Position numbers and translations under genes: made by a program. The notes beneath the pieces are model-generated. The model ran no database searches, was not told the DNA's origin, and was given only the letters and a program-made list of their open reading frames with translations. A stretch of DNA of 25,585 bases from Pseudomonadota bacterium (GTDB taxonomy: Bacteria > Pseudomonadota > Gammaproteobacteria > Burkholderiales > Gallionellaceae). The stretch spans positions 1-25,585 of the forward strand of contig JAJZSA010000034.1 in assembly GCA_021822115.1 (NCBI GenBank), given 5' to 3'. Shown here piece by piece: positions 7,775 to 25,585 of this stretch. How positions within the stretch are numbered: position 1 is the first letter of the stretch; the number at the start of each line of letters is the position of its first letter.

Positions 7775-8638
7775 TCAGCGCGGCAGATAATCGCCTGCCA
7801 GCCCGGCGAACACGGCCGCGCCGAACCAGTTGTTGTGCAGGAAGGCGGCGAAGCAGCGCTCGCGCTGGCGGTCCTTGATCAGCGTGTAGTGGTGCAGCGC
7901 CACGCCGGCTGCCGCCAACAGTCCCAGATAGAACACGGCTCCCAGGCCCGCCATCACCCCGGCCAGCATCAGCAACCCGAGCGTGGCGGCGTAGCAGGCC
8001 ATCACGGCGGCCACGTCGAAACGACCGAAGAACAGCGCCGAGGAATGGATGCCCAGGTGGATGTCGTCGTCACGGTCCACCATGGCGTATTCGGTGTCAT
8101 AGGCGATGGCCCAGCACACGTTGGCGGCGAGCAGCACCCAGGCCACCGGCGGCACATGGCCCAGCTGCGCGGCAAAGGCCATGGGGATGCCGAAACCGAA
8201 GGCGATGCCGAGATAGGCCTGCGGGATGGCGAAGAAACGTTTGGTGAACGGGTAGCTGGCGGCCAGGAAGGCGGCCGGGAAGGCCAGCACCCAGGTCAGC
8301 GGATGCAGCGGCACGATCAGCGCGAAGGCGAGCAGCGCCAGCACCACGGCCAGCCACACCGTCTCGCGTTCGCTCACCTTGCCGCTGGTGAGCGGGCGTT
8401 CCCTGGTGCGCTGCACATGCTTGTCGATATGACGGTCGGCATAATCGTTGATGGCGCAGCCGGCGGAGCGCATCAGCACGGTGCCCAGCGTGAAGATGAC
8501 GACGATGGACCAGGCCGGTTGGCCGTCGCCCGCGATCCACACCCCCCATAAGGTAGGCCATAGCAACAGCAGGATGCCGATGGGGCGGTGCAGGCGGGTG
8601 AGCTGGATGTAGAGCTGTAAACGTTCGCGGATCATCAT
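7775..8638 (-). CDS. ubiA: 4-hydroxybenzoate polyprenyltransferase UbiA
   Basis: Inner-membrane prenyltransferase that attaches the polyprenyl tail to 4-hydroxybenzoate, the second committed step of ubiquinone synthesis after UbiC. The protein is strongly hydrophobic (eight or nine spans) with both catalytic aspartate motifs: NDYADRHID near residues 64-72 and [12 protein letters not shown] in the cytosolic loop after the fifth span, plus the RERPLTSGK segment and the N-terminal [18 protein letters not shown] signature. I chose the ATG at 8638 ([10 protein letters not shown]) because UbiA proteins usually begin shortly before the RxxRPIG segment; 8635, or the ATG at 8668 that adds ten residues, are alternatives and no start has a strong ribosome site. 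ubiC, often its direct neighbour, lies 12 kb away at 20828, beyond the signalling operon. Confidence 0.94.
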
Positions 8639-8677
8639 GGGCGCGATTCTACCTGTCGCGCGCATCATGCGCAGGGG

Positions 8678-8749
8678 TCACCTGAGCCACTGCGCGGCAT
8701 AACGGCTCTGTGCCTCGATCGGCGGCATGTGGCGCTGTAGCCTGTTCAT
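8678..8749 (-). other. Doubtful 23-codon ORF or gene remnant between the chemoreceptor and ubiA
   Basis: An ATG at 8749 opens a 23-residue frame, MNRLQRHMPPIEAQSRYAAQ then WLR and TGA at 8678. GGGAAAG is present but too close to the ATG for a normal ribosome site. The residue pattern looks protein-like, so it may be the trimmed end of a gene lost when the region was rearranged, or a small leader ORF before ubiA. I recognise no family and the length allows chance. Confidence 0.2.
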
Positions 8750-8789
8750 CTTTCCCGCATGGCGTCCGGTGCCACTCCCCGTACCGCGT

Positions 8790-10841
8790 TCAGATACGGA
8801 AATGGCGTACCGAGCCTTGCAGTTCGTGTGCGAATTCCTGCAGCTTGTGCGCAGTGCGGTCCACGCTCTCCACCGCCACGCGATTGGCCTCGGTCATCAG
8901 TGCCACCTTCTCCACGTTGCTGGCGATCTCGTGCCCGGTCTGGGTCTGTTCCTGCAACGAGGTCAGGATGTCGTTGATGCCGTGCAGCACCTTGTCTGCC
9001 CCTTCGTTGATGCCCACGATGGCGCGCCCAGCCTGCGCGGCATGCGCCGCCCCTTGTTCCATCTGCTGCATCGCCGTCTGCATCTGTGCCACGGCGTGCC
9101 GCGTGGTGCCGCTGATGCCGGTGATCACTTGCTGGATCTCCTGCGTCGCATTGGCGGTCTTCTCCGCCAGCTTGTGCACCTCGTCCGCCACCACCGAGAA
9201 ACCGCGCCCCTGTTCGCCGGCACGCGCCGCCTCGATCGCCGCATTGAGCGCCAGCAGATTGGTCTGCGCGGCGATCTCGTTGATCATGCCGACGATCTGC
9301 TGCACCTGCTGCGTGCGTTCACCCAGCTCGGCGATGGTGCCGGCCACCTGCTTGATGGCGTCGTTGGTCTCGCTGATGGTGCGCGCGGCTTTCTCCACCA
9401 CTTCGCGCCCCTCGTCGGACAGGTGCTTGGACTGGTCGGAGATGTCCTTCACCTGCTGCGCATTGGTGGTGATCTGATCCACGCTCACGCTCATCTGCTC
9501 CACGGCGGCGGCCATGTTGCTGGCGGAATCGGACTGCGCACTGGACGACTCGGTGAGCTTGGCCACCGCCTGGGTCAGGCGCTGCGAGCGCTCGTCGACA
9601 TGGCGTGCCGCGCCGGTGATCTGGTCGATCACCGAGCCCATCATCACCTTGGTCGATTGCACCGAGCACAGGATCTTGCCCATCTCGTCGCGGCCGCGGA
9701 TGTCGGCATGGTTGCTCATGTCGCTGTTGCCGTTGACCAGACGTTCCAGGTGGCCGGTGATCTGCTGCACCGGACGGTTGACGAAGCGGCGCACGATCCA
9801 GCGGATGAAGAAGAACAGGAACACCTGGGCGAAGATCTGGCCGGCGATGAGCTTGGCGATGAACAGCTTGAAGTCGCGGTAATCCGCGCTCAGGTCGATG
9901 GTGATGTCGGCCGCCCCCAGTACCTCGCCCTCGGCCACCTGGTGGCAGCCCAGACAGTCGGTGCCGCGATGGTTGCTGCTGCCGAGGAAGGGGATCACCG
10001 CATGGAACACCGGTTTGCCGTTGGCATGCTCGAGCGCCATATAAGGTTCGCGCGCTGCCAGTGCCTGACGCTGGATGTCGTTCTGCACCTGCTCTTCCGG
10101 CAGGCCGGGGCCGTACAACGCCGTCACTTTTTCCGCGCGCAGCATGTGCAGCGACAGGATGCCTTCGCCCTCGGCCAGTTTCTGGCGCAACAGCTTGCGG
10201 TTCTCCGGATCGCTGATCTGGCCGGTGACCATCAGCAGGTTGGCGCTGTCCAGCATCTCGTTGGCGATGGCTTCCACGCTATGCCGCGCGTTGTGGTGCA
10301 GTTGCTCGTTCAGGTTCACGGCGGTGGTCAGCGCCGACAGGATGAGGAACACGAACAGCATCGGCTGGATCAGCCATTGCAGCTTGACGCCCAGCGACAG
10401 GTCGTTGAAACGGCGGCGCCAGCCGGCTTGCCGCGGCGACTGGCGCGTGCGGTACAGCGCCTCCGCCGCGGCCACTTCCTGGCGCGTGGGTTTCTTGCGC
10501 AGCGAGATGTAGCCGAGGATGTTGCCGCCCTCGCTGATGGGCGAGACCGACGCCTTGACCCAGTAATGGTCGCCGTTCTTGGCGCGGTTCTTCACGATGC
10601 CGGTCCACGGATAGCCGGCCTGCACCGTCTTCCACAGATCGGCGAACGCCCATTCCGGCATGTCCGGATGACGCACGATGTTATGGTTGCTGCCCAGCAG
10701 TTCCGCGCGCTCGAAACCGCTGATCTGCACGAAGCAATCATTGGCATAGGTGATGATGCCCTTGGGGTCCGTCTTGGTGATGAAGACGCACTCTTCCGGG
10801 AATCCGATCTCGCGCTGGGTGACTGGCTGGTTGTTCTTCAC
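8790..10841 (-). CDS. Methyl-accepting chemotaxis protein with Aer-type PAS domain and periplasmic CxxCH haem-motif sensor domain
   Basis: 683-residue chemoreceptor. Order: cytoplasmic Aer-like PAS at about 10-118, with [10 protein letters not shown] (54-63), D68, W70, W79 and [15 protein letters not shown], residues that bind FAD in E. coli Aer and at the same positions; TM1 about 155-177; periplasmic region about 178-326 containing TDCLGCHQ, a c-type haem attachment motif CxxCH at 296-300; TM2 about 327-351; HAMP; and the methyl-accepting signalling hairpin with [20 protein letters not shown] (523-542) and [12 protein letters not shown]. It should pass oxygen or redox signals to CheA/CheW. 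The start is GTG at 10841 in a GTGA overlap with the upstream kinase, behind GGAGAGGG. It is the last gene of the nine-gene operon. No C-terminal CheR-docking pentapeptide is seen. Confidence 0.92.
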
Positions 10842-13324
10842 GCTTCCCTCTCCTGATTATCGTTCTGTTGATTATTGTTCTGTATGCGCGGCAGCCACAG
10901 GGTGACCTGGGTGCCGCTGCCGGGCGTGCTGACGATGTCGATGCTGCCCCCGTGCAGCATGACGATCTCGCGCGTCAGGCACATGCCGAGGCCGGTGCCC
11001 GGCGTGCTGCCGGATTTGTCGCCGCGCCAGAAGCGCTCGAACACGCGTTCCAGTTCCGCCGGCGACATGCCGATGCCGTGGTCGCTGACGCGGATGCCGA
11101 TGCGCCCCCCTTGCGCATCCTCGATCATCTCGATGACGACCTCGCCGGCCGCGGAATATTTGTAGGCATTGTCGATCACGTTCAACAAGGCCTGCTGCAT
11201 CTTGCCCGGGTCCACATGGACCATCATGTGCGGCATCAGGGCAAAACGCGGCGGCGTGCGCCCGGCCACCGGCGCATGCAGGCCCAGCGTCGCCTGCACC
11301 AGTTCTGCACAATCCAGCGTGGCCGGATGCAGCAGGCCCTTGCCACGTGCATCGATGCGGCTGAGATCGACCAGGTCGTTGATGATGCGCACCAGCCACT
11401 TCGCCTGGCCGTGGATGACCTGCAACGCCTCTTCGCGCATCGCGCCTTCCAGGCGGCCTTGTAGCAGCAGTTCGGCGTAACCCAGCACGCTGGTCAGCGG
11501 TGTGCGCAATTCGTGCGCGGCGAGGGCGAGGAACTCGCTCTTCATGCGCACTAGCTCCTCTTCGCGCGTGATGTCGCGCATGTAGATCACGCTGCCCGCA
11601 TAGCGCTCGCCGTCGCCCTCCGCCAGATGGATGGCGCGCGTGGCGCACAGCAACTGACGCACCTCCGGCTGGCGCAGTTCCAGACGCAGCACTTCGCCAT
11701 CGCCGGGCACTGTGCGTGCATCGCCGTCGGCCAGCAGGCGCTTCCACAGCTTGTCCTTGTGCATGCCCAGCCAGGTGTCCGCCGTGCTGCCGGTCCAGGC
11801 GAGGAAAGCGGGATTGACCAGCACGATGCGCGCGTCGGCATCGGTGGCGATGAAGGCATCCGGGCTGAGGTCGAACACCGATTGCAGGCGTTGTTTCTGG
11901 CTGGACAGTTCGGTTTCGGCGCGGTCGCGCTGCTGCCAGGCGCTGTCCAGCTGCTCCGCCATGTGCGCGATGCCGCGCGCGGTGCGGTCCAGCTCGGTCA
12001 CCGGCAGCGTTTGCAACTGCGGCCGATAGCGACCGTTGCCGATGTCGGCCACCATGTCGTCGATGCGTTGCAGCGGTTCGGACAGGAAGCGGCTCATGGC
12101 GCGCGCGCGGCGATACAGCAGCAGGAAGAACACCACATAGAACAGCACCATGCCCAGCACCATCAGCAGCGCGATGCGATTCAGGCGAGCGGCCAGGGTC
12201 TGCGCCGGCAGGTAGATGTTGCGCTCCGGCGCCACCACCACCAGCTTCCAGCCGGTCTCCGGGATGGTGGCCCAGGCCACCAGGCTGTCTTGCGACAGAT
12301 GCACATGCTCCAGACCGCTGGCCTGGGCGCGGATGTGCTGCGGCAGGTCGCCGTAACCGGTGCGCTTGAACAGGTTGGCGCTGTCGGCGCGGAAGGTGTC
12401 CTGCTGGATGGCGGCGGCATATTCGTGGCGGGTGGTGCTCTCCTTGCCCCAGTCGGCATCGCCCGCCTGCGGCATGGCGATGATGGCGCCCTCGCGGCTG
12501 AGCAGCATGCCGTAACCGGCCCACGGGATGCTCAGGTTGAGCACGTCCGACACCAGCGCGTTCACCGTGATGTCGGAGCCGATCACCCCTTCCAGCAGAT
12601 CGCCGCGATACACCGGTGCGATGCACGAAGCCATCCAGCCCTGTCCGGCCGGGTCGACATAGACGTCGGTCCACACCACGTTGCGCTGCGGGTTGTGCGC
12701 CAGATCCGCCTCGTAATAGAAATTGAACGCGGGGATGTCCATGTGCGGCGCGTACTGCGTGACGACATCGAAGTAGGGGTAGATGCGGTTGAGCGAATCG
12801 TGGGTGTTGTAATAGACCTGCACGATCAGCGGGAACGCCTGCTGGATGCCCTTGAAGGCGGGATCGAGGCCGGCCGAGCGCATGGCCTTGGCGCGTTCCG
12901 CTGCGCCGATGGGGCGATAGCCGCTGTAGAACAGCGCGCTGCCGCCGTTGTCGCGCGTGGTGTAGTACGCGCCGTCCTTGGAGTAGGCGTAGCGCTCCGG
13001 GTCGTCGCGCATGGCGCTGTCGCCCTGCACCATCACCCGATGTGTCTCGCGGCGCAGGAACTCGGTGGCCTGGGTGATGCCTTTCAGTTGCTGGTTGATG
13101 CCGCGCGCTTCGCGGCTGGCGAGCTGCGCCAGTTCGTGTTCGGCCTGTTCGCGCACCGCTTCGATGTTGGCCTGGGTGGAGATGGCGTTGCTGGCGAAAT
13201 AGATCACGATCAGTCCCACCTCGACCAGCAACAGCGGGATCAGCGAGGTGCGGAAATAGGCGCGCCAGATCCAGCGGATGAGCGGGATGCCATGCGTGGG
13301 GGGCAGGCGTTGTGCGGTGGTCAT
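10838..13324 (-). CDS. Membrane sensor histidine kinase (Cache-like, HAMP, PAS, HisKA, HATPase)
   Basis: 828 residues. TM1 at about 26-47, a large periplasmic Cache-type sensor at about 48-380 (segments [20 protein letters not shown] and [20 protein letters not shown], then VIGSDI, are typical of double-Cache domains), TM2 at about 383-404, HAMP at about 405-460, one PAS domain at about 475-585 ([20 protein letters not shown]), the dimerisation/phosphoacceptor helix with H604 in [12 protein letters not shown], and an HATPase with N719 ([10 protein letters not shown]), DHGIGM (748-753) and GTGLGM (776-781). All catalytic boxes are intact. It has no receiver of its own, so it probably phosphorylates the lone receivers in the same operon. 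GGAGG precedes the ATG at 13324, which directly abuts the stop of the HD-GYP gene; its own stop overlaps the chemoreceptor start. Confidence 0.93.
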
Positions 13325-14086
13325 CTAGCGCGCCTCCATCAGTTGCGGCGCCGGCACCGGCGAGGTGCGCAAGCCGTCCATGAATTCGTCCATGGCCAGG
13401 TTGAGGGCACGCACCACCTTGGGGTCGTAGCGCGTGCCGTAATGCAGGAACACCTCGTTGAAGGCTTCCTGGGCGTTCAATCTGGGATGGCCGTGCAGCC
13501 CGTGCAGCAGGTCGTCGAAGTAATCGGCCACCGCCACGATGCGCGCTTCCAGCGGGATGTTCTCGCCGAGCAGGCCATTGGGATAACCGCTGCCGTCGAA
13601 ATGTTCGTGATGCGAACGCGCGATCATGGCCGCGATGGACAGGATGTGGTCGTCGGCGGTGAGGATGGCGGCGCCCAGTTCGGTGTGCCGCTGGAACGTA
13701 CGCGTATCGCTGCCGTCGCTATAACTGTCGCTCGACAACGCCAGCATGCCGATGTCGTGCAGCGGCGCCGCCAGTTCCAGCATGGAGCAATAGGAGCGAT
13801 CGATCTCCATGCGGTGCGCCAGCAGGGCCGCCAGGCGCGCCACGCGCAGGCCATGCTGGTGACTCGCCGGGTCGCGCAGTTGCAGCAGCACCGTCATGTG
13901 GCGGATCACCGCCAGCGAGGTGATGCCGAGTTGGCCTTCCTTGTTCATCCTGAGCAGCGACAGGTAGTTCGCATGCAGCTTGGCCAGGTCCTGCGCCATG
14001 CGCAGGTTCTGCTGCTGGCTGCGATGCAGGCGCATGGACTGGCGTTGCAGGTACATCGTGCGGAACAGGCGTTTGATGCGCTTCAT
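13325..14086 (-). CDS. HD-GYP domain protein, probable c-di-GMP phosphodiesterase with HDIGM variant
   Basis: 253 residues. An N-terminal basic/helical segment (1-50) leads into an HD-GYP domain at about 55-245. Visible metal and substrate motifs: H78 (SHQHGLRVARLA), HD at 110-111 in PLHDIGM, H134 (QRHTELGAAIL), HHE at 159-161, DGSGYP at 164-169, and IPLEARIVAVADYFDDLL (177-194). The usual HDIGK lysine is methionine here; the HD ligand pair itself and the GYP signature are intact, so activity is plausible but should be tested. There is no receiver or other sensor domain, so it must be controlled by partners, likely the HAMP protein upstream with which it shares an ATGA overlap. Product would be pGpG or GMP from c-di-GMP. 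Confidence 0.9.
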   Translation of the reverse strand: MKRIKRLFRTMYLQRQSMRLHRSQQQNLRMAQDLAKLHANYLSLLRMNKEGQLGITSLAVIRHMTVLLQLRDPASHQHGLRVARLAALLAHRMEIDRSYCSMLELAAPLHDIGMLALSSDSYSDGSDTRTFQRHTELGAAILTADDHILSIAAMIARSHHEHFDGSGYPNGLLGENIPLEARIVAVADYFDDLLHGLHGHPRLNAQEAFNEVFLHYGTRYDPKVVRALNLAMDEFMDGLRTSPVPAPQLMEAR

Positions 14087-15264
14087 CGTGCGGCCCTGAG
14101 CGCCATCTCCTTGGCGGAGGTGGTCATTTCCTTGGTCAGTTTTTCCAGTTCGTTGGCCAGTGTCATGCGGTCGCGCACCATGTCGTCGAAGCCGTCCAGC
14201 AGGCGGCTCATGTCGTCGCGCAGCGATTTCCAGCTATTGGAGATGTCGGCGATCAGCAGCAGATGGTGGCGCAGCTCGACCATCTGTTCCGGTGTCGCCT
14301 GGTCGCCGCTGCGCAGCGCATTGACGATCTGCAACGCTTCGGACAGCGCCTGCTGCATCTGGCTCTTGCCCTCGCGCATCTCGCGCAGGTCCTCGAAGAT
14401 GTCCTTGCTGATCGCGGTCTCTTCGATCACGCCCTTGCGCACCTGGGACGAGATGTCGGCGGCGATCCTGGTCAGGCCGAGCAGCATGTGGGCGTTGTCG
14501 GCGATCAGGGCATGCGAGGCGGTCAGGTCCTTGACCATCTGGCGCATCAGTTCGCGCAGCTCCAGCAGTTCGTCGAGGTGCACCTCGCATTCCGACAAGG
14601 TCTCGGCCGGTACCTCGCCGCGTCCGATGCGTTGTGCGATGCGCCCCATGTCGCGCAGCGGCCTGACCAGCAGATGGAACACCAGCCACAGCATGAGCGC
14701 CACCAGGATGGCCAGGCTGCTGCTCAACCAGTTGAGCTGTTGTTCGTGGCGCGCCAGATCGAGTGCGGCATCGTGGTTCACCTGATGCTGGCGGCGCGCC
14801 TGTTCGCCGCCCAGGGTGTCGAGCAGGATGAAGGCTTCTTCCACATGGCGGCGATAGGCGTTCACCGCGGTGCGTGAAGGCGGTGTCTGGCGCAGGTTCG
14901 CCAGCTGGGCCATCAAGGCATCCAGCTGCCGGTAGGCGCGATGCTCCTCACGCAGTTCGGCATCCAGCTGAAGCTGGTATTCCTGCCACAGGTCGAGGAT
15001 GCGGCCGTTCAGGGGTGCCAGCGCGTCATAGGCCTCCGGGTCGTGGGTGAGGCTGGACAGTTCGTGCAAGGCACCCTTGAGGTCGGCGGCGAGCGTGTTC
15101 TGCACAGCCTGGCGTGCATTGTCGGCGACGATGCGTTGCGACAGCGAAGTCAGCGCATGGCGGGTGAACATCGCACCCAGCACCGCAGTGGCGCAGATCA
15201 CCAGACCGGACAGCAGCATCAGGTTGCGTACGCGCAGCAGGCGGGCGGGGAGCAGGCGGATCAT
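14083..15264 (-). CDS. HAMP-domain membrane protein with long cytoplasmic coiled coil, no catalytic domain
   Basis: 393 residues. TM1 at about 15-33, a mostly helical, charged periplasmic domain of about 145 residues (34-178), TM2 at about 180-200, HAMP at about 199-250 (VRPLRDMGRIAQRIGRGEVP), then a helical, heptad-like cytoplasmic part to the end (EELREM..., TLANELEKLTKEMTTSAKEM). It looks like the input half of a chemoreceptor or kinase, but the chemoreceptor tip signature and kinase boxes are absent. Overlaps of 4 bases on both sides (EAL gene upstream, HD-GYP gene downstream) suggest the three proteins act as one unit, with this one bringing a periplasmic signal to the phosphodiesterases. 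I know no named family for the full architecture. Confidence 0.8.
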   Translation of the reverse strand: MIRLLPARLLRVRNLMLLSGLVICATAVLGAMFTRHALTSLSQRIVADNARQAVQNTLAADLKGALHELSSLTHDPEAYDALAPLNGRILDLWQEYQLQLDAELREEHRAYRQLDALMAQLANLRQTPPSRTAVNAYRRHVEEAFILLDTLGGEQARRQHQVNHDAALDLARHEQQLNWLSSSLAILVALMLWLVFHLLVRPLRDMGRIAQRIGRGEVPAETLSECEVHLDELLELRELMRQMVKDLTASHALIADNAHMLLGLTRIAADISSQVRKGVIEETAISKDIFEDLREMREGKSQMQQALSEALQIVNALRSGDQATPEQMVELRHHLLLIADISNSWKSLRDDMSRLLDGFDDMVRDRMTLANELEKLTKEMTTSAKEMALRAAR

Positions 15265-16460
15265 GATCGTTGCAGGCTGAAATGGCGCGACACTTCGCGC
15301 GACGGGTTGCTGCCGGCATAGGCGAGGAAGGCGCCGGCATCCACCGGGCGGCTGAAGAAGTAGCCCTGCGCCTCGTCGCAGCCGCTACGTGCCAGCGCCA
15401 GCGCCTGACGCTTGTTCTCCACGCCTTCGGCCAGTGCGCGCATGCCCAGGCTGTGTGCCATGCGCACCGTGTTGCGCACGATCAGATGGTCGACCGGATT
15501 GTCCAGCATGTCGCGCACGAAGGACTGGTCCACCTTGATCTCGCTGGCGGGGATCACCGATACCTGGTGCAGCGAGGAATAGCCGGTGCCGTAGTCGTCG
15601 ATGGCGATCTCGATGCCGAAGCGGTACAGCTCGAGAATGGTCTCCAGCAGCATGTCCAGGTTCTGCACCATGGCGCTCTCGGTGAGTTCGATGGACAGGC
15701 ATTCGGGATCGAGATGCGCGGCATCGATCATCGCCAGCACGTTGGCGGCGACGCCGGGCAGACTGAAGGTGCTGGCGGAGAAGTTGACCGCCACCTTGAA
15801 GTCGTAGCCCAGTCGCCGCCATTCCCAGGTCTGGCGCAGTGCATCCTCCAGCACCAGCCAGGTCATGTCGGGCATCAGCTGGAACTCTTCGATCAGCGGG
15901 ATGAAAGTGTCCGGCGTGATCAGGCCGTGTTCCGGATGCTGCCAGCGCACCAGCGCCTCGGCGCCGATGATGTGCCCGGCCTTGAGGGCGATCTTGGGCT
16001 GGAAGTAGGTGGTGAACTCGTGTTGCCTGATCGCCTTGCGCAACATCTCGCCGGTGATCTCCAGTGGATTGTCTGCGCGGTGATGGCCGACCGGATGCAG
16101 CTGGCGATGGGCCAGCGCCTGGATGTCGCCGAAGAACACCGGCACGTTGAGTTTGACCGCTTGGCGGATGCCCTTGGCGCGGGCATACTGGAAAAAGGCT
16201 TCCTGCACCCGTTTGCCGGTGGCGTCCTTGTTCATCAGCAGGCCGAGCACCGGCAGCGGTTCCATCTGCGCGATCTGCTTGATGGTCTCGATCGGTGCGA
16301 CGCCGTGCGCCAGCGCGTCCATGATGATCAGGTCGTAGGCTTCTTCGATCGCCATGCCTTCGCGGTGGCGCACCACCGGGCAGTCGCCCAGGCGCTCGCC
16401 GTATTCCAGCAGGTCGTTGTACAGGGCGTCGTCGCCCCCGATGAGCAGGATCCCTTTCAT
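15261..16460 (-). CDS. EAL-domain c-di-GMP phosphodiesterase with receiver-like N-terminus
   Basis: 399 residues. Residues 1-120 look like a degenerate receiver (GILLIGGDDALYNDLLEYGE, then DLIIMDAL with D48 where the phospho-aspartate would be). Residues about 135-390 form an EAL domain with the catalytic set: EAL at 168-170, N226 (NFSAS), E258 (IELTES), DDYGTGYSS with D288-D289, K309 and D311 (IKVDQSF), AEGVE with E345, and AQGYFFSRP. It should hydrolyse c-di-GMP to pGpG. I chose the ATG at 16460, behind AAGGAGA and in an ATGA overlap with the upstream gene; the open frame extends to 16850 but that part overlaps the upstream gene and has no protein-like character. It also overlaps the HAMP protein gene by 4 bases. 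Confidence 0.92.
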   Translation of the reverse strand: MKGILLIGGDDALYNDLLEYGERLGDCPVVRHREGMAIEEAYDLIIMDALAHGVAPIETIKQIAQMEPLPVLGLLMNKDATGKRVQEAFFQYARAKGIRQAVKLNVPVFFGDIQALAHRQLHPVGHHRADNPLEITGEMLRKAIRQHEFTTYFQPKIALKAGHIIGAEALVRWQHPEHGLITPDTFIPLIEEFQLMPDMTWLVLEDALRQTWEWRRLGYDFKVAVNFSASTFSLPGVAANVLAMIDAAHLDPECLSIELTESAMVQNLDMLLETILELYRFGIEIAIDDYGTGYSSLHQVSVIPASEIKVDQSFVRDMLDNPVDHLIVRNTVRMAHSLGMRALAEGVENKRQALALARSGCDEAQGYFFSRPVDAGAFLAYAGSNPSREVSRHFSLQRS

Positions 16461-17083
16461 CGCTTGTCTCCTTCTCTTTCGGCGATCAATTGCAACAGCA
16501 CATCCACCAGTTCGCGATCGAACAGGCGGCCACTCTCGTGGCGCAGCAGTTCGGCCAGCTCGCCATGGGCCAGCGGTGCCACTTCCTGGTCCGGATACAG
16601 CGCCTCGGTGAGCGAGGCGGCATATTCGGCCAGCGCGAAGATGCGCGAGGCCAGCGGCAGGTCGCTGCCGGAGGCGCCGGGCGTGGCGCCGGGGCCGCAG
16701 AACAGCGCGATCTCCATGGCCATCTGTTGCACCGCTTCGGAAGCCGCATGTCTGTCGCTGCGATGTGCGGTGAGCGCCGTGCGTACCGCCTCGGCCAGCG
16801 TGGTGTGGTATTCCGTCGATTGGCCGAGACGCTCGGCGATCTGCTGGCACAGGCCGGAGACGGCGGCGATGTAGGCCAGCGAATAGCGGCGCGGCTTGGG
16901 AGGCTCCGGCAGCGGCCGCGCGGCGCGGAAGCGAGCCGGTGCATCGTCGGCCGCCAGCAAGGCGCGGAAGTCCTCGGCGTAGCGGTCCAGCTGCTGTTGC
17001 AGGCTGGCCTTCTCGCTCTTGAGCAGGTCGATGTAGGCGAGCAGGAACGGGCGCCCGCTGTGGTCGCGATGGGTGTCGGGCAT
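16457..17083 (-). CDS. Degenerate HD-GYP-like protein lacking HD and GYP motifs
   Basis: 208 residues, soluble. Residues 15-45 are helical (LKSEKASLQQQLDRYAEDFR), followed by a Pro-rich linker (RPLPEPPKPRR). From about 65 to 205 the layout follows an HD-GYP domain, clearest at the end: DLPLASRIFALAEYAASLTE (141-160) matches the IPLEARIFAVADVFDALT strip of active enzymes, and ESGRLFDRELVDVLLQLI (183-200) matches the usual final helix pair. The HD pair, HHE and DGSGYP are all missing, so it cannot be a metal-dependent phosphodiesterase; a c-di-GMP- or protein-binding adaptor is possible. ATG at 17083 follows AGGAG and overlaps the receiver stop as TGATG. The homology is my reading and not certain. 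Confidence 0.75.
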   Translation of the reverse strand: MPDTHRDHSGRPFLLAYIDLLKSEKASLQQQLDRYAEDFRALLAADDAPARFRAARPLPEPPKPRRYSLAYIAAVSGLCQQIAERLGQSTEYHTTLAEAVRTALTAHRSDRHAASEAVQQMAMEIALFCGPGATPGASGSDLPLASRIFALAEYAASLTEALYPDQEVAPLAHGELAELLRHESGRLFDRELVDVLLQLIAEREGDKR

Positions 17084-17499
17084 CACGCGCTCCTGTGTTC
17101 CAGATGGCCGGGACGGGTCTCGATCAGTTCGATCAGTTCGATGGGCGAGAACGGCTTCACCACATAGGCATCGGCGCCGGCGGCCAGCCCAGCGGCGCGG
17201 TCCGCCTGTTGGCCGAGTGCAGTGAGCAGCACGATGTAGGCGTGCTTCAGCGCCGGGTCCCGCTTGATGCGGTGGCACACTTCCAGCCCGTTCAGTTCGC
17301 CCGGCATCATGATGTCGAGCAGGATCACGTCCGGACGGATCTCCTGCGCCAGCTGCAAGGCTTCGCTGCCGTTGCTGGCGAAGTATTGCTTGTACAGGCC
17401 GTAGCCCAGGGTCACCGACAGCAGTTTGCGCAGGTTGCCCTCGTCATCGACGATCAACAGGTTCTCGTGGGTGGTGGGGGTCGTATCCATTTCAAGCAT
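17083..17499 (-). CDS. Single-domain response regulator (receiver only)
   Basis: 138 residues making one receiver domain: acidic pocket D18-D19 (LLIVDDE), phosphoacceptor D62 (VILLDIMMPG), T93 (VLLTALG) and K115 (YVVKPFSP). No output domain, so it works as a phosphate shuttle or by protein contact, in the manner of CheY or DivK, most likely with the kinases encoded on both sides and with the c-di-GMP proteins downstream. The ATG at 17499 lies inside the end of the CHASE kinase gene (8-base overlap) with AAAGG only two bases away; an ATG at 17490 has better spacing from the same AAAGG, so the first three residues are uncertain. Its stop overlaps the next start. Confidence 0.92.
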   Translation of the reverse strand: MLEMDTTPTTHENLLIVDDEGNLRKLLSVTLGYGLYKQYFASNGSEALQLAQEIRPDVILLDIMMPGELNGLEVCHRIKRDPALKHAYIVLLTALGQQADRAAGLAAGADAYVVKPFSPIELIELIETRPGHLEHRSA

Positions 17500-20017
17500 C
17501 GCCTTTCTGGTCTGACGGGTCTATGGGGAAACGCAAAGTGATCGAAGTGCCCGCGCCCGGCCGGCTATCGAGCGACACGCTGCCGCCGTGGATCTGCATG
17601 ATCTCCTTCACCAGCGACAGGCCGAGGCCGGTGCCGGGGATGGCGCCCGAGGTGTCGGCGCGGAAGAAGCGGTCGAACGCCTTGAGCTGGTGTTCCTTGC
17701 TCATGCCGATGCCGTGGTCGGTGACGCTCACCGCCAGCATGGCGCCGGCTTCGCCGTGCTCCAGCATCTGGCGGATCTCGATGGCGCCGCCGTGCGGCGA
17801 GTATTTCCAGGCGTTGCTCAGTACATTGACGAACACCTGCTTGATCTTGTCTTCGTCGATACGCACATCGGGCATGCCTTCCTCGCCGGCGATGAAACGC
17901 ACCGGGTGTGTATCCTGCGGCAGGTTGAGTTCCTGCAAGGCCTTGCGCATCACTTTGGCGGTCTGGTGTCGCTCGAAGCGGAAGTCGCGCCCGGCGCGCG
18001 CTTCGATGCGCGTGAGGTCGAGCAGTTCGTTCACCATGCGGATCAGGCCGCGCGTCTGCTCGTAGACGATCTGCAGGTATTCCTTGCGGTCCTCTTCCGC
18101 CAGCGGACGGGTGAGCATCAGTTCCACGAAGCCGTAGATGCTGGACATCGGCGCGCGCAGCTCGTGCGCGGCGGTGGCCAGGAAGTCGCTCTTCATCTCG
18201 TCGATCTCCACCTCGCGCGTGATGTCGCGGAAGAAGATCACCGTGTGCAATTCGGCCGAATCCAGTTGCCGCGATTCCCAGCGGATCACCCGCTTGGGGT
18301 CGCGCAGGCGGAAGCTGCCTTCCTGCGACTGGTTGTCCAGGGCATGGCGCAGGGCGCGCGTGTCCTTCATGTCGAGCAGGTTGCCCAGCGCCTGGATGAA
18401 AGTGTCGATGGTCAGCTTGCCATCCGGCTTGCGCTCCAGCGCGAACAGGTCGAGCAGGCGGTCGTTGCAGAAGGTGATCTGCTGCGACAGCGACAGCGCC
18501 AGCACGCCTTCCGGACTGTTGGCGAAGATGCGGCGCAGGTTGTCTTCGCTGGCGCTGAGCGCGAGCTGGGCCAGCTTGCGCTCGGTGACGTCGGCGATGC
18601 TGCCGATCATGCGCAACGGCGTGCCGTCCGCGCCGCGTTTCACCAGTTCGCCGCGGTCCAGCACCCAGATCACGTCGCCGTTCTCCTTGCGCATGCGGTG
18701 CTCGCTGACATAGGGCAGGCCGCGTCCCAGATGGTCGGCCAGACGCTGTTTGACCTGCGCACGGTCGTCTTCATGCAGGTGGCTGGCGAACAGTTCGAAG
18801 TCGCTCTCCAGCGTGGGCGGGGTGATGCCCAGCAGTTCGCTCCATTTGGCGTTGTGCATCACCTTGCCGTTGGCGATGTCCCAGTCCCACAGGCCTTCGC
18901 CGGTGGCCGACAGGGCGAAGCCGAGGCGCTCCTCGCTGGCGGCGAGGCTGGCGCTTTTCTCTTGCAGCTCTTCGGTCAGCGTGTCGGCGATGCGGCGTGC
19001 GTTCTGCTGTGTGTTCTGCATGGAGCGGATGAGCGAGTACAGCAGCAGCGTGAGCAACAGGCCGATCAGGGTGGTGGCGGTGCCGTTCTGGCGTGCATGC
19101 GCATGCATGTCCTGTGCGGATTGATCGAAGTCCAGCGTCCAGGTGCTGCCGTTGAACAGCACGCTGCGCGAGATGTGCACCGGGTCGGGCAGGCTGGCGC
19201 CGGGCAGGCTGTCGTACAACAGTGCCTGCGCATCGCTGAGCGCACCGTCATACACGCGCATGCGCACCGTGTCCGCCGGGAAATTGCCGGTGGAGAACAC
19301 GGTGCCTTGCAGCATGTCCTTCATGCGGAACGGGCTGTAGACCCAGCCTTGCAGGGCGGCTTGCCGTTGCGCCAGGGTGTCGATGGGAGTGCCCTTGCGA
19401 TAGACCGGGACGTACATCAGGGTGCCGGCCTGGATGTCCTCGCTGGTCTCCTGCACCAGATGCACCTTGCCGGACAGGGCCGGGGTGTTGTCGTTCATGG
19501 CGCGCGTCATGGCCTGGCGGCGCACCTGTTCGGAATACATGTCGTAACCGAAGGCGCGCAGGTTGCGCCCGCTGAACGGTTCGAGGAAGACGATGGCACT
19601 GTACAGCTCGCGCTTGCCGGGCGGCCATACCGCATAGTGCGGGAAGCCCTCGCGGCGTGTTCCCGCTTCATGGGTAGGCAGCTCTTGCGGCGTCAGCTTG
19701 CGCGCGAAACCGAAGCCGAGGATGCCCTTGAAGTGTTCGTCCAGACGCAGGCGTTCGGCATAGCGTCGCCAATCCTCGCGCGTCACGTTTTCCGAGGCGT
19801 CGAACAGTGCGGCGCCGCCGAGCAGCACTTGTTTGTGCGCTTCCAGACGGCCTTCGGCCTTGAGCACGATCTCGTCGCAATAGCCGGCGAACTCGCGCTC
19901 GGCCTGCTTCAGCCGGTTGTCGTAGACCAGGTAGCCGGCCAGCAGGCTGAGTCCGGTGCCGCCCAGCAGGGTGAGCAGTGCGGTCGAGCGCGGCAGGTTG
20001 TTGCCGGAACGCGGCAT
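17492..20017 (-). CDS. Membrane sensor histidine kinase (CHASE, PAS-PAS, HisKA, HATPase)
   Basis: 841 residues. TM1 at about 12-32; an extracytoplasmic CHASE domain at about 60-300 with its typical GILGFGFARKL (98-108), FPHYAVWPP (125-133), FLEPFSGRNLRAFGYDMYSE (144-163) and MYVPVYRKG; TM2 at about 312-331; two PAS domains at about 360-480 (GLWDWDIANGKV, ending DVTERK) and 490-600 (ending FFRDITRE); phosphoacceptor H618 in TAAHELRAPMSS; then an HATPase with NVLSNAWKYSP, DHGIGM and GTGLGL. All boxes are intact. CHASE domains bind small adenine-like, peptide or other ligands; the ligand here is unknown. The ATG at 20017 follows GAGGAG and starts 2 bases after the HTH-receiver gene; the frame stays open further upstream but only as an overlap with that gene. 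Confidence 0.93.
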   Translation of the reverse strand: MPRSGNNLPRSTALLTLLGGTGLSLLAGYLVYDNRLKQAEREFAGYCDEIVLKAEGRLEAHKQVLLGGAALFDASENVTREDWRRYAERLRLDEHFKGILGFGFARKLTPQELPTHEAGTRREGFPHYAVWPPGKRELYSAIVFLEPFSGRNLRAFGYDMYSEQVRRQAMTRAMNDNTPALSGKVHLVQETSEDIQAGTLMYVPVYRKGTPIDTLAQRQAALQGWVYSPFRMKDMLQGTVFSTGNFPADTVRMRVYDGALSDAQALLYDSLPGASLPDPVHISRSVLFNGSTWTLDFDQSAQDMHAHARQNGTATTLIGLLLTLLLYSLIRSMQNTQQNARRIADTLTEELQEKSASLAASEERLGFALSATGEGLWDWDIANGKVMHNAKWSELLGITPPTLESDFELFASHLHEDDRAQVKQRLADHLGRGLPYVSEHRMRKENGDVIWVLDRGELVKRGADGTPLRMIGSIADVTERKLAQLALSASEDNLRRIFANSPEGVLALSLSQQITFCNDRLLDLFALERKPDGKLTIDTFIQALGNLLDMKDTRALRHALDNQSQEGSFRLRDPKRVIRWESRQLDSAELHTVIFFRDITREVEIDEMKSDFLATAAHELRAPMSSIYGFVELMLTRPLAEEDRKEYLQIVYEQTRGLIRMVNELLDLTRIEARAGRDFRFERHQTAKVMRKALQELNLPQDTHPVRFIAGEEGMPDVRIDEDKIKQVFVNVLSNAWKYSPHGGAIEIRQMLEHGEAGAMLAVSVTDHGIGMSKEHQLKAFDRFFRADTSGAIPGTGLGLSLVKEIMQIHGGSVSLDSRPGAGTSITLRFPIDPSDQKGDA

Positions 20018-20019
20018 GT

Positions 20020-20634
20020 TCAATGCTCCTCGCCGCCCAGTTGCATGAGGTCGTCGGCGATCATCTGCACCCGTGCCTGGATCAGACCGAACGGTACCGG
20101 CTTCATGAACACCGACACCCCCTCCGGTATGCCACCCAGTTCGGCCAGGCGTGTGGCGTCCATGCCGGTCACCACGATGATCTCGCTGTCGTCGCAGGCA
20201 TGCTCCTCGCGCAGTTTGCGCAGCATCATGATGCCGTCCATGCCGGGCATGTCGATGTCGGTGATGAGGATGTCGGGGGCGTGCGCGCCGATGGCGACCA
20301 GTGCCGCGAACCCGTCGTGCACGATCTTCAGGTCGATGGGCAGCCCCCAGCTCTTGAAGGTGGCCTGGTACAGCTTGCACAGGGCGAGGTTGTCTTCCAC
20401 CACCAGGATGCTGAGCGCGGCGGGCCGTGCCGGCACCGCTACTGCGCGGGGCTGGCTGGGCAGGTGTTGCCGGTCGAGCATGGCCTGCACCGATTCCTTG
20501 AGTACCCGGCGATGGCCGCCCGGCGTCTTCCAGGCGCGCAGGCTGCCGTTCTCCACCCACAGCTGGATGGTGCGCAGGGATACGCCCAATAGTTTGGCGG
20601 CGTCCTGGGTGGTGCAGACCTCTTGTTCTGGCAT
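20020..20634 (-). CDS. Response regulator with N-terminal MerR/excisionase-type HTH and C-terminal receiver
   Basis: 204 residues with inverted order compared with ordinary response regulators. Residues 7-52 are an excisionase/MerR-like winged HTH (TTQDAAKLLGVSLRTIQLWV followed by TPGGHRRV), the type that reads short AT-rich operators. Residues 74-200 are a receiver with E80-D81, phosphoacceptor D126 (ILITDIDMPGMDG), T156 (VVTGMD) and K178 (FMKPVP). It is the first gene of the nine-gene operon and the only member with a DNA-binding domain, so it is the likely autoregulator acting on the repeats at 20696-20747. The ATG at 20634 has only a weak GAGAG upstream; the leader from the predicted start point is about 50 bases. 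Confidence 0.92.
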   Translation of the reverse strand: MPEQEVCTTQDAAKLLGVSLRTIQLWVENGSLRAWKTPGGHRRVLKESVQAMLDRQHLPSQPRAVAVPARPAALSILVVEDNLALCKLYQATFKSWGLPIDLKIVHDGFAALVAIGAHAPDILITDIDMPGMDGIMMLRKLREEHACDDSEIIVVTGMDATRLAELGGIPEGVSVFMKPVPFGLIQARVQMIADDLMQLGGEEH

Positions 20635-20691
20635 GGTGGCGGCTCTCGTTCCGTGTGGTGCTGAAAGGTCGTCGGGTGGCGACGGATGTGC

Positions 20692-20719
20692 ATTATTATC
20701 AAATTTATCAAATTGTCAA
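20692..20719 (-). promoter_or_regulatory. Strong predicted sigma70 promoter of the nine-gene signalling operon
   Basis: On the minus strand a perfect -35 TTGACA (20719-20714), a 16-base spacer and AATAAT (20697-20692, 5 of 6 matches). Transcription would start near 20685, about 50 bases before the ATG at 20634. It lies in an AT-rich patch that stands out sharply from the GC-rich surroundings. Confidence 0.65.
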
Positions 20720-20729
20720 TTTTTGATAA
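20696..20729. repeat. TTATCAAATT direct and inverted repeats inside the operon promoter
   Basis: TTATCAAATT occurs twice in tandem (20696-20705 and 20705-20714, 9-base period), a degenerate copy TTGTCAATT follows at 20713-20721, and an inverted TTTGATAA lies at 20722-20729. The copies cover the spacer, the -35 and the edge of the -10, where a bound regulator would block or realign RNA polymerase. Candidate operator for the HTH-receiver protein. Confidence 0.55.
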
Positions 20730-20731
20730 TC

Positions 20732-20747
20732 ATCATTAATTAATGAT
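20732..20747. promoter_or_regulatory. 16-base perfect palindrome upstream of the operon promoter
   Basis: ATCATTAATTAATGAT is a perfect palindrome with no spacer, centred about 55 bases upstream of the predicted start point, a usual place for an activator dimer. Its AT-only core and lack of T-tract argue against a terminator role. Confidence 0.55.
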
Positions 20748-20827: not shown

Positions 20828-21370
20828 TCAGCGCGTCAGCGGCTGGATGGCGGGCAGGAACACTTCGGTAACCAGCAGCGGTGCACCGTGCAAGGTGAAC
20901 AGGGAGCGGCGTGCCCATAGCAGTTCGGGGACGGCGTGCAGCTCGGCGATGCGCCGGTGCAGCGGGTGATGTTCGCGCAGCGCCTTGAAATGCAAAGGCT
21001 GGCGCGTGACTTGCGGGTGCGAGAACAGCATCGCGCCCAAGGGGGTGTTGCCGAGTCCGGCCAGGGCTGCCCATTCCCCTTGCAGGTGTTGCGGGGCGCA
21101 GGCGGAGTGGGCGAACACTACCGGTACGCCGTCGGCCAGCAGGAACACTTCGCGCGAGAAGGCCAGTTGTTGCGGGCGCACGCCGAGCAGGGCGGCTTCG
21201 TCGTGGGCGATGGCGGCCAGACCGCTGCGTACCGGGTCTACCGCGAAATCATGGCAGTGCTGCTGGATGCGCTGGGTGAGCGAGCCGTGGTCGTGCAGCC
21301 AGGGGTGCAGTTCGGGCGGACAGCCGATGGTGGCGGCGCTCCAGAAAGTGTCAGGTGTGCAGGTAGTCAT
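20828..21370 (-). CDS. ubiC: Chorismate--pyruvate lyase UbiC
   Basis: 180 residues. It converts chorismate to 4-hydroxybenzoate and pyruvate, the entry step of ubiquinone synthesis, in the cytoplasm. The family pattern is clear: PWLHDHGSLTQRI (23-35), REVFLL with R73 (equivalent to product-binding R76 of E. coli), PLGAMLFSHP with the LG at 111-112, SLFTLHGAPLLVTEVFLP with E169 near the end (equivalent to E155 of E. coli). The start overlaps the last 20 bases of recG, so the two are translationally coupled. UbiA, the next enzyme, is usually encoded directly after ubiC; here the 12-kb signalling operon comes first, followed by ubiA on the same strand. Confidence 0.93.
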   Translation of the reverse strand: MTTCTPDTFWSAATIGCPPELHPWLHDHGSLTQRIQQHCHDFAVDPVRSGLAAIAHDEAALLGVRPQQLAFSREVFLLADGVPVVFAHSACAPQHLQGEWAALAGLGNTPLGAMLFSHPQVTRQPLHFKALREHHPLHRRIAELHAVPELLWARRSLFTLHGAPLLVTEVFLPAIQPLTR

Positions 21371-23403: not shown

Positions 23404-24684
23404 TCAACTGACCAGCTTGGCGACGCGCATGTCGGCCATGCGCAGCCGGTCTGCCATCACGCGCAGGAAAGCCTGGTTGAAATGCAGCTGGCAGTGGTCG
23501 GACAGGCCGGCCAGCAGGCGCGGCGCGATCTTCATCACGGTGACTTCGGTACCGGCGGTGACCGTGGCCGAGCGCGGCACCACGCGGCCGCTGATGTAAG
23601 ACATCTCGCCGAAACAGTCGTCGCGGCTGATCAGGTTGAGCAGGTAGCCGTTCTTGGTGATGTTCACCGTGCCGGCGATCATCACGTAGAAGTCGTCGCC
23701 CATCTCGTCCTCGCGCATGATCACGCTCTGCGCCGGCAGTTTCTGCCAGTCGCCGATGCGCAGGATCTCCCACAGCTCGGTATCAGAGAAGTCGCCGAAC
23801 AGTTTCATGCCGCGCAGGGTGGTGAACTTCTCGGTCTGGTTGTTGGCGTTGTCGCTGCTCTGGTAGCTGCCCAGCAGCGACAGGTCGTTGCCGAAGTCGC
23901 GCCAGTTCTGGTAGCGCTGTGCCTTGTCCTTGTGCATGGCGCGTTCCACGATGCGCACCAGTTCGCGCGGCAGGTCCGGGCGGTAGGTGGTGATCGGCGT
24001 GGGCGGCATGTTGAGGATCTGGTGGCACAGGCTGGCCAGGTTCTGCGCCTTGTACGGCGCGTGGCCGGTGAGCAGGCGGTACATCACCACGCCCAGCGAA
24101 TAGATGTCGGTCTGGTGAGTGAGCGGCTCTGCGCTCAACTGCTCCGGCGACATATAGCTGGGCGAGCCCAGGTTGCTGACCTGGGTCTGTTCCAGATCGA
24201 GCAACAGTGCGGCGCCCATGTCGGAGATCTTGATGTCGCCTTCCTCGGTCAGCATCATGTTGGCCGGCTTGATGTCGCGGTGGATGACGCCGTTGAATTG
24301 CGCGTAGTTCAGCGCGCGGCAGCACTTGAACATGTATTCCACCACGCGTTCCAGCGGCAGCAGGTGGTCCGGTTCGACGTGTTTCTCCAGCGTGCCGCCG
24401 CTGACGTATTCCATCACGATGTAGCTCTCGTCGTCGCCGATCAGTGCGTCGTAGATGGCCACGATATGCGGGTGCGACAGGCGGCCGGCGAGCGAGGCCT
24501 CGTTATCCAGCTGGCGCCGGAACACCTTGCCCATGCGCGCGTCGTTGAGGATCTCCTGCTTGAGCACCTTGATCGCCACTTCGCGTTCGGCGAAGTGGTC
24601 GTAGCCGTGGTAGACGGTACTGGTGGTGCCCTGACCGAGCACGCCCTTGATCAGGTATTTGCCGATCGCCTTGGGTGTCGCCAC
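23404..24684 (-). CDS. Ser/Thr protein kinase fused to a C-terminal cyclic-nucleotide-binding domain
   Basis: 426 residues, no transmembrane segment. Residues 8-275 are a Hanks-type kinase: glycine loop LGQGTTSTVY (16-25), VAIK with K39, E62, HRDIKPANMM (135-144) with catalytic D137, SDMGAA with D155 (DMG in place of DFG), SPSYMSPEQ (APE variant), and TDIYSLGVVMYRLLTG. Residues about 300-415 are a CAP-like cyclic-nucleotide or CRP-type domain: LFGDFSDTELWEIL, the phosphate-binding cassette [20 protein letters not shown]. The fusion suggests a cytosolic kinase gated by a cyclic nucleotide or by another ligand of this fold. The start is GTG at 24684, 18 bases after the ridA stop; only a weak ribosome site is present. 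The neighbouring gene beyond ridA carries a closely similar domain. Confidence 0.92.
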   Translation of the reverse strand: MATPKAIGKYLIKGVLGQGTTSTVYHGYDHFAEREVAIKVLKQEILNDARMGKVFRRQLDNEASLAGRLSHPHIVAIYDALIGDDESYIVMEYVSGGTLEKHVEPDHLLPLERVVEYMFKCCRALNYAQFNGVIHRDIKPANMMLTEEGDIKISDMGAALLLDLEQTQVSNLGSPSYMSPEQLSAEPLTHQTDIYSLGVVMYRLLTGHAPYKAQNLASLCHQILNMPPTPITTYRPDLPRELVRIVERAMHKDKAQRYQNWRDFGNDLSLLGSYQSSDNANNQTEKFTTLRGMKLFGDFSDTELWEILRIGDWQKLPAQSVIMREDEMGDDFYVMIAGTVNITKNGYLLNLISRDDCFGEMSYISGRVVPRSATVTAGTEVTVMKIAPRLLAGLSDHCQLHFNQAFLRVMADRLRMADMRVAKLVS

Positions 24685-25124: not shown

Positions 25125-25585
25125 CTAACCGAGCCGGGATATGCGTTCGTCCGCCATGCGCAGGCGCTCCGCCAATACATAGAGGAATGCCTGGTTGAAA
25201 TGGTTCTGGCAACTGTCCGACAGTTGGGCGATCTGCAAGGGGTCCAGCTTCATCACCGCGATCTCGGTGTTGGCGGTGACGGTGGCGGAGCGCGGCATCT
25301 GCTTGCCGCGGATGTAGGCCATCTCGCCGCAGCAGTCGCCGTTGCGCAGCGCCAGCAGCAGGCGCGCGCCGCGCGTGACGCTGACGCTGCCGTCGATGAT
25401 GAAGTAGATGGCGTCGCTCATCTCGTTCTCGCGCATCAGCACGGTCTTCTCCGGCTGCTTGTGCCATTCGGCGATGCGCAGCACCTCCCACAGTTCGAGG
25501 TCGCTGAAGTCGTCGAAGAAGGTCATCTTGCGCAGGATGCCGAACTTCTGGTTCTCGGCCACTTCCAGTCCGCTCTTCTCGAAAT
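25125..25585 (-). CDS. Cyclic-nucleotide-binding domain protein, partial (N-terminus beyond right edge), paralogue of the kinase C-terminus
   Basis: The frame is open to the right edge (last residues read are [15 protein letters not shown]), giving about 153 residues. They form a CAP-like domain: [20 protein letters not shown], the cassette [20 protein letters not shown], and a C-terminal helix [20 protein letters not shown]. This lines up along its whole length with residues about 290-426 of the kinase at 23404-24684 ([54 protein letters not shown]), including the GEM and PRSA cassette residues. A GTG at 25562 could be a start for a stand-alone domain, but the in-frame coding-like sequence beyond it suggests a longer protein, plausibly a second kinase. 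Confidence 0.85.

Follow-up and report, generated by a model that had tools for sequence, protein, structure and literature searches.

What brings nine signalling genes together between ubiC and ubiA in a bacterium of the family Gallionellaceae, and do they act as one circuit? The genes lie on contig JAJZSA010000034.1 of assembly GCA_021822115.1, of which we analysed a stretch of 25,585 nucleotides (hereafter the window). All nine are on the minus strand at 8790-20634, where open reading frames (ORFs), order, strand and coordinates were verified; from gene 1 to gene 9 they overlap or abut, with junctions of +2, -8, -1, -4, -4, -4, 0 and -4 bases. Tight junctions and one promoter at the front support the prediction of a single operon, in agreement with a first-pass annotation made from the letters of the window without database searches. 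The observation is real and more structured than that first reading suggested. Our answer, to which we give slightly less than an even chance, is that the block would be an autoregulated operon of a helix-turn-helix-receiver (HTH-REC) regulator, lowering cyclic di-GMP (c-di-GMP) and supplying a redox-type chemoreceptor, with genes 3 and 4 as a split version of the Shewanella oneidensis protein HnoD. The first-pass proposal that all nine serve a single pathway is unproven, and a fixed stoichiometry among their products is likewise conjectural.

Domains were assigned with Pfam (matches to E 0.001; the longer ORFs were used for genes 2, 4 and 5), and receiver, EAL and HD-GYP motifs were compared with the motif sets usual for these domains. 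Gene 1 (20020-20634, 204 aa) encodes the HTH (HTH_17/MerR)-receiver regulator, with receiver residues intact; among the 60 of 189 PDB matches listed, the aligned part is the receiver. Gene 2 (17492-20017, 841 aa), for which we set the start at ATG 20017 and not at that of the longer GTG ORF at 20560, encodes a CHASE-PAS-PAS histidine kinase with CHASE (218.5 bits), HisKA (61.6 bits) and HATPase (91.9 bits) all over their cut-offs. Its H box (18149-18166, alanine codon 18152-18154) reads HELRA; nine of ten related kinases have HELRT and the tenth has no recognised box. The available text of PMC12570481 associates the H-E-x-x-T/N motif with phosphatase activity. Gene 3 (17083-17499, 138 aa) is a single-domain receiver with its residues intact. 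Gene 4 (16457-17083, start set at ATG 17083, 208 aa) has no Pfam match, and its predicted structure (pLDDT 76) gave 4mcw, 4r8z and DvhD as best Foldseek matches, one of them with E below 0.001 (9.1e-4) and a TM-score of about 0.5. Gene 4 is thus predicted to adopt an HD-GYP fold from which the HD, HHE and GYP motifs have been lost; despite the fold match, it does not have the HD and GYP motifs of an HD-GYP phosphodiesterase.

Gene 5 (15261-16460, start set at ATG 16460, 399 aa) encodes an EAL phosphodiesterase (227 bits) with complete catalytic motifs (EALVR, VNFS, ELTES, DDYGTGYSS, IKVD, AEGVE and QGY) behind a degenerate N-terminal receiver-like part in which the pocket residues are missing. 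Gene 6 (14083-15264, 393 aa) encodes a helical membrane protein of a rare family, with two transmembrane-like segments, a HAMP-like linker and long cytoplasmic helices; it has no Pfam match and no fold match at E below 0.001 (model pTM 0.42), and the HAMP label reflects weak EnvZ/MtrB-like similarity and predicted helices. Gene 7 (13325-14086, 253 aa) is an HD-GYP phosphodiesterase (Pfam HD_5) with HD and HHExxDGxGYP intact and no receiver. Gene 8 (10838-13324, 828 aa) encodes a Cache-PAS histidine kinase (PAS, HisKA and HATPase by Pfam, and Cache at 35.5 bits, under its cut-off of 45) with the H box HELRT. The protein is common (766 matches, the best 120 listed), and HELRT is present in 100 of these best 120, the other 20 having no recognised box. 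Both kinases keep their catalytic boxes.

Gene 9 (8790-10841, 683 aa) encodes a chemoreceptor composed of an Aer-like PAS domain, a transmembrane-like segment, a periplasmic part with CLGCH, a second transmembrane-like segment, a HAMP-like region (23.0 bits, under the cut-off of 25) and an MCP signalling domain (MCPsignal). The closest solved structure to its N-terminal PAS domain is Aer (8dik, 1.6e-40), and Aer-type PAS domains bind FAD. The haem c motif CxxCH occurs in the periplasmic part as CLGCH at residue 296, as CLSCH in the G021 relative and as CLQCH in that of G083. Judged by this motif, gene 9 is a putative c-type haem chemoreceptor that may bind both haem and flavin, and the redox character given to the whole block in the first-pass annotation would come from its PAS domain and CxxCH alone. 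No GGDEF family was matched in any of the nine proteins at E 0.001. The remainder of the first-pass inventory is borne out: two complete kinases, two phospho-receivers (genes 1 and 3), two c-di-GMP phosphodiesterase folds (EAL and HD-GYP), a pseudo-HD-GYP protein, a receiver-like-EAL protein and a chemoreceptor without an accompanying GGDEF cyclase.

The most useful new element is a short repeat in front of gene 1, a possible link between regulator and chemoreceptor. The promoter is a sigma-70-like site on the minus strand (TTGACA-16-AATAAT, 20719-20692) that agrees with the consensus at 11 of 12 positions; two promoter-like sites were found in the region, with 1.8 expected from shuffles, so its weight comes from position and conservation. 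Within it a repeat search found two exact 9-bp direct repeats (ATTTGATAA twice; 20696-20713, minus strand), a putative operator of the pattern TGATAA-N3-TGATAA, and an inverted copy of the element pairs 20722-20733 with 20692-20703. The best 30-mer shared with the G021 promoter is identical at 27 of 30 positions, whereas 200 shuffled pairs reach at most 21. Over 20 upstream regions (the window and 19 family loci), we counted 22 TGATAA/TTATCA half-sites against 3.9 +/- 2.0, and the exact pair occurs in three of these regions (window, G021 and G073). The pair has a single occurrence in the window with up to one mismatch allowed, and none in 100 shuffles. Five relatives whose HTH-REC belongs to the same clade contain seven exact pair sites and no site of the reversed pattern. 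Two precede HTH-REC genes (G021 and G073, both known before the search), and two are new: one in G083, 64 bp before a chemoreceptor with a gene-9-type CxxCH part, and one in G023, lying 398 bp ahead of a chemoreceptor of 642 aa that has an Aer-like PAS domain but no CxxCH; there an automatically called ORF of 91 aa runs across the site on the opposite strand. This recurrence is a hint that the switch protein may control both its own genes and the chemoreceptor.

Gene 1 also marks smaller modules of the block in other genomes. Of 158 family genomes, 16 contain a total of 22 matches to it (E 1e-20), and of 369 class genomes, 21 contain 23 (E 1e-18); surroundings were fetched and mapped for 20 of the 22 family matches. 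G083 and G025 each contain, in this order, an HTH-REC (54% identity), a kinase like the cytoplasmic part of gene 2 (44-46%) and a REC (61-62%). The G088 locus has an HTH-REC, a kinase of the Cache-like class, a CHASE kinase (39%) and a REC (43%); that of G073 has an HTH-REC (39%), a REC (52%), a degenerate HD-GYP (31%) and another REC, after which comes a 182-aa protein without Pfam match (L109:10879-11427). REC and degenerate HD-GYP are also paired in G016, with an HTH-REC adjoining on the opposite strand, and G021 has an HTH-REC (75%) followed about 300 bases further by a gene-9 orthologue (65%). Many of the remaining HTH-REC loci have other kinase, receiver, GGDEF or PAS genes. The nine-gene set is thus a mosaic, with its parts found separately in relatives; of the nine-gene order whose conservation the first-pass annotation proposed to examine, these loci show smaller modules.

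In a tree of 41 HTH-REC sequences, which does not include S. oneidensis HnoC and in which several branches are long (among them that of one G073 sequence in the window clade), the window groups with G021 (support 99/98) within a clade of seven that also holds G083, G025, G023 and both G073 sequences (100/99). The three best matches in the class sample (46-53% identity) lie ahead of a roughly 180-aa protein, assigned to HNOB by Pfam in both cases tested, and of a hybrid kinase. At these three loci (L166, L167 and L168) a protein of about 430 aa also follows, a MOP-type flippase in the two tested, an arrangement that possibly links nitric oxide sensing with polysaccharide export. A weaker class match (33%) shares its cluster with a PhnD-like protein, a kinase and a member of the NosR family (461 bits against a cut-off of 400).

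Genes 4, 6 and 8 apparently stay together elsewhere. A search of 5.8 billion protein sequences, with reach limited to shared words, returned ten proteins for gene 6 (itself included) and seven for gene 4. Homologues of genes 6 (P0003/P0010), 4 (P0015/P0017) and 8 (P0023/P0020) apparently share two metagenome contigs of 15,906 and 469,479 bases, and those of genes 4 (P0012) and 8 (P0018) a third, of 16,046 bases. Co-location was judged from identical longest-contig sizes and covers these three genes; chance agreement of the sizes is very unlikely. The neighbourhood search with genes 6 and 4 suggested in the first-pass annotation was productive for some of the nine genes. Neither 158 family genomes (E 1e-10) nor 399 order genomes (E 1e-8, at most four candidates scored per genome) nor plasmids yielded gene 6, and pattern scans matched 304 stretches of genome contigs and 119 of viral contigs, none of them a relative; these searches ran without a positive-control genome. 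A weak, partial-length match in G002 (E 5e-5) was rejected as a relative of note. No gene 8 was found in the 158 family genomes at E 1e-120 (at most six candidates scored per genome), and six matches in the 399 order genomes (40-46% identity, at most two scored per genome), one beside a REC-EAL gene, were not accepted as orthologues. With a degenerate HD-GYP profile the family genomes yielded 19 matches in 17 genomes, near full length only in G016 and in G073, whose own sequence is in the profile; the remaining 17 align with the final part only, as expected of ordinary HD-GYP, and were set aside. Among the titles and abstracts listed in searches of openly licensed literature, none describes such an operon.

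The first-pass annotation knew no named system of this composition. That claim does not stand as worded, since HTH-REC, kinase, degenerate HD-GYP and EAL recall the Hno network of S. oneidensis (H-NOX/HnoK/HnoS, HnoC, HnoD and HnoB), which has a MerR-type response regulator repressing the network to which it belongs, a degenerate HD-GYP modulator, an EAL phosphodiesterase and two converging kinases. HnoD is a receiver fused to a degenerate HD-GYP domain. The background on the Hno, PcrK and BldC systems used here comes from the available portions of PMC6335343, PMC8738867, PMC8846402, PMC9938897, PMC12570481, PMC7072313, PMC5859096 and PMC8250860. In these portions, HnoC is a MerR-type repressor that binds palindromes (PMC9938897) and whose repression is lifted by phosphorylation (PMC8738867), and two kinases converge, with HnoD inhibiting the EAL enzyme HnoB (PMC6335343); the HnoD domain is given as degenerate HD-GYP in one review and as an inactive diguanylate cyclase domain in another. 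By analogy the block would work like the Hno network, of which it is not itself a member. Gene 1 is a MerR-type HTH response regulator as in Hno; at E 0.001 no HNOB family is listed for the nine proteins, and CHASE and Cache kinases stand in place of an H-NOX sensor. The receiver (gene 3) and the degenerate HD-GYP (gene 4) are separate genes with a 1-base overlap, HnoB has a functional receiver where that of gene 5 is degenerate, and the block adds an HD-GYP enzyme, a HAMP-like protein and a chemoreceptor.

Other known systems share single features with the block. PcrR of Xanthomonas is a phosphodiesterase that acts on c-di-GMP, and structure 6k62 is presumably that of its partner PcrK. There, too, a CHASE kinase controls a phosphodiesterase response regulator, and the available text names neither an HTH-REC nor a degenerate HD-GYP for the pair (PMC7072313). 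In NosP/NosK/NosR a kinase acts on a degenerate HD-GYP response regulator, as far as the accessible part of PMC12570481 goes; no FIST sensor is listed among the nine, and against the NosR family (NF053512, cut-off 400 bits) gene 7 scores 126.6 and gene 4 26.3 bits. Gene 9 resembles both Aer and haem c chemoreceptors in its Aer-like PAS domain and periplasmic CxxCH, and differs from both in joining the two features in a single protein. BldC, a MerR-like HTH protein, binds 9-bp direct repeats (available text of PMC5859096), like those found here; the gene 1 HTH is weakly similar to it and carries an additional receiver.

Gene content, motifs, partial co-conservation and a repeat that recurs ahead of certain gene 1 and gene 9 relatives are what we observe; on this basis we propose the following circuit, in which we infer every phosphotransfer step, the contacts between proteins, the binding of DNA, haem and flavin, and the direction in which control runs. 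Unphosphorylated gene 1 product, a response regulator of MerR/BldC type, would occupy the TGATAA repeats in its own promoter and repress the operon, and phosphorylation by the CHASE kinase would, as for HnoC, relieve that repression. The same kinase would phosphorylate the gene 3 receiver, which would act through gene 4; together these two would be a split HnoD, restraining or releasing the EAL phosphodiesterase of gene 5. A second, membrane-fed branch, made up of the HAMP-type transducer (gene 6), the HD-GYP enzyme (gene 7) and the Cache kinase (gene 8), may also lower c-di-GMP. With gene 9 under the same operator, a fall in c-di-GMP and redox taxis would be switched on together. This reading is weakest in the role that it gives genes 6-8 in the block. 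A more ambitious version, which we consider possible but doubtful, makes the block a decision unit that fits in one operon and can be transferred; in it, an HnoC-like regulator on a BldC-type 9-bp operator would set both c-di-GMP breakdown via split HnoD and supply of the Aer-PAS/haem c chemoreceptor, fed by two membrane kinases of different specificity, the CHASE kinase being without the phosphatase-type threonine.

Several observations weigh against the proposed circuit. Co-conservation, as judged by equal contig sizes, holds for part of the nine only, and in G083 and G025 the kinase beside HTH-REC lacks the CHASE part. The H-NOX-linked HTH-REC proteins form a supported clade of their own, to which the window sequence does not belong; HnoC is described as binding palindromes, whereas a direct repeat is the clearest element here; and gene 1 scores 37.7 bits against the BldC model, under its cut-off of 77. 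The half-site is present in 13 of the 20 upstream regions and absent from seven, a repeat pair reaches 0.01 or less against shuffles in only seven of the 20, and at the class level the half-site was found in seven of 18 upstream regions and in none of the other 11 (counted without a shuffle comparison). Three of the seven pair sites in the clade fall inside other genes, and G025 has none. A narrower pattern, selected after the first result and scanned over 158 genomes, gave ten sites, the four already seen before HTH-REC or chemoreceptor genes and six in other genomes, with one for the reversed control; the six have no HTH-REC or chemoreceptor gene within the viewed 1.5 kb or less on each side. 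At three loci (L208, L210 and L212) AATGATAATCCTGATAA lies near small genes, in two of the three antitoxin-like and of what we take to be the HigA type.

Signalling genes gathered by insertion might simply share a promoter, with kinases, phosphodiesterases and chemoreceptor serving other partners in the cell. The separate occurrence of subsets of the nine, the general type of the kinase H boxes, the wealth of such signalling genes in the fetched relatives and the different kinase that G083 and G025 have in the CHASE kinase position all fit such co-transcription of separate pathways. It is nonetheless unlikely in our judgement, as it sits poorly with the apparent retention of genes 4, 6 and 8 together on two distant contigs and with a repeat element common to HTH-REC promoters and that of the G083 chemoreceptor with the haem motif. 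It is improbable that the block is mainly a taxis operon, with the chemoreceptor under the control of gene 1 and phosphodiesterases that do no more than tune motility: HTH-REC is followed by the receptor in G021 and the element stands before the receptor in G083 and, more distantly, in G023, but in G073 and G016 HTH-REC is accompanied by REC and degenerate HD-GYP, and the genes listed around them include none with a called chemoreceptor signalling domain. A nitric oxide (Hno/Nos) system, although its degenerate HD-GYP and EAL are present, and HTH-REC homologues adjoin H-NOX-type genes or, for the weaker one, share a cluster with a NosR-family gene, is very improbable given that no H-NOX or FIST family is listed for the nine, that genes 4 and 7 score far under the NosR cut-off and that the window HTH-REC belongs to a separate clade.

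Comparison with kin marks the block as an insertion, one that leaves no signal in composition. The flanking ubiC (20828-21370) and ubiA (7775-8668), both on the minus strand, are 12,159 bases apart in the window, compared with 300 bases or fewer at 40 of 49 loci in kin, 301-1000 at four and more at five (maximum 2,977); the 49 are those of 80 fetched loci at which both genes were mapped at E 1e-10, the 31 at which one of the pair was not mapped being left uncounted. GC and GC3 of the block are close to those of the flanks, and recent import as judged by composition was dropped, GC3 being equal to the flanks. The host has iron oxidisers among its relatives. Its RecG, encoded in the window, shares 83% identity with the one on a contig (L001) from a metagenome-assembled genome (MAG), and the next MAGs are named Sideroxydans, Gallionella, Nitrotoga and Nitrosomonadales. 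No tRNAs, and no RNA families at gathering scores, were found in the window. Long frames on the plus strand opposite the operon (8727-10856, 709 aa; 11627-14785, 1052 aa; 17588-20743, 1051 aa) are usual at such G+C and were not counted as genes. Near recG and a RidA-like gene, as read from the translations, are a protein resembling Ser/Thr kinases, the C-terminal part of which looks like a cyclic-nucleotide-binding domain (23404-24684), and a small protein similar to it (25125-25562).

If the proposed circuit is true, the HnoC/HnoD/HnoB logic known from nitric oxide sensing would be a general cassette for other sensors, and one that can be wired to a chemoreceptor. A short DNA element would then predict target genes, and the block would offer an example from nature of a degenerate HD-GYP separated from its receiver.

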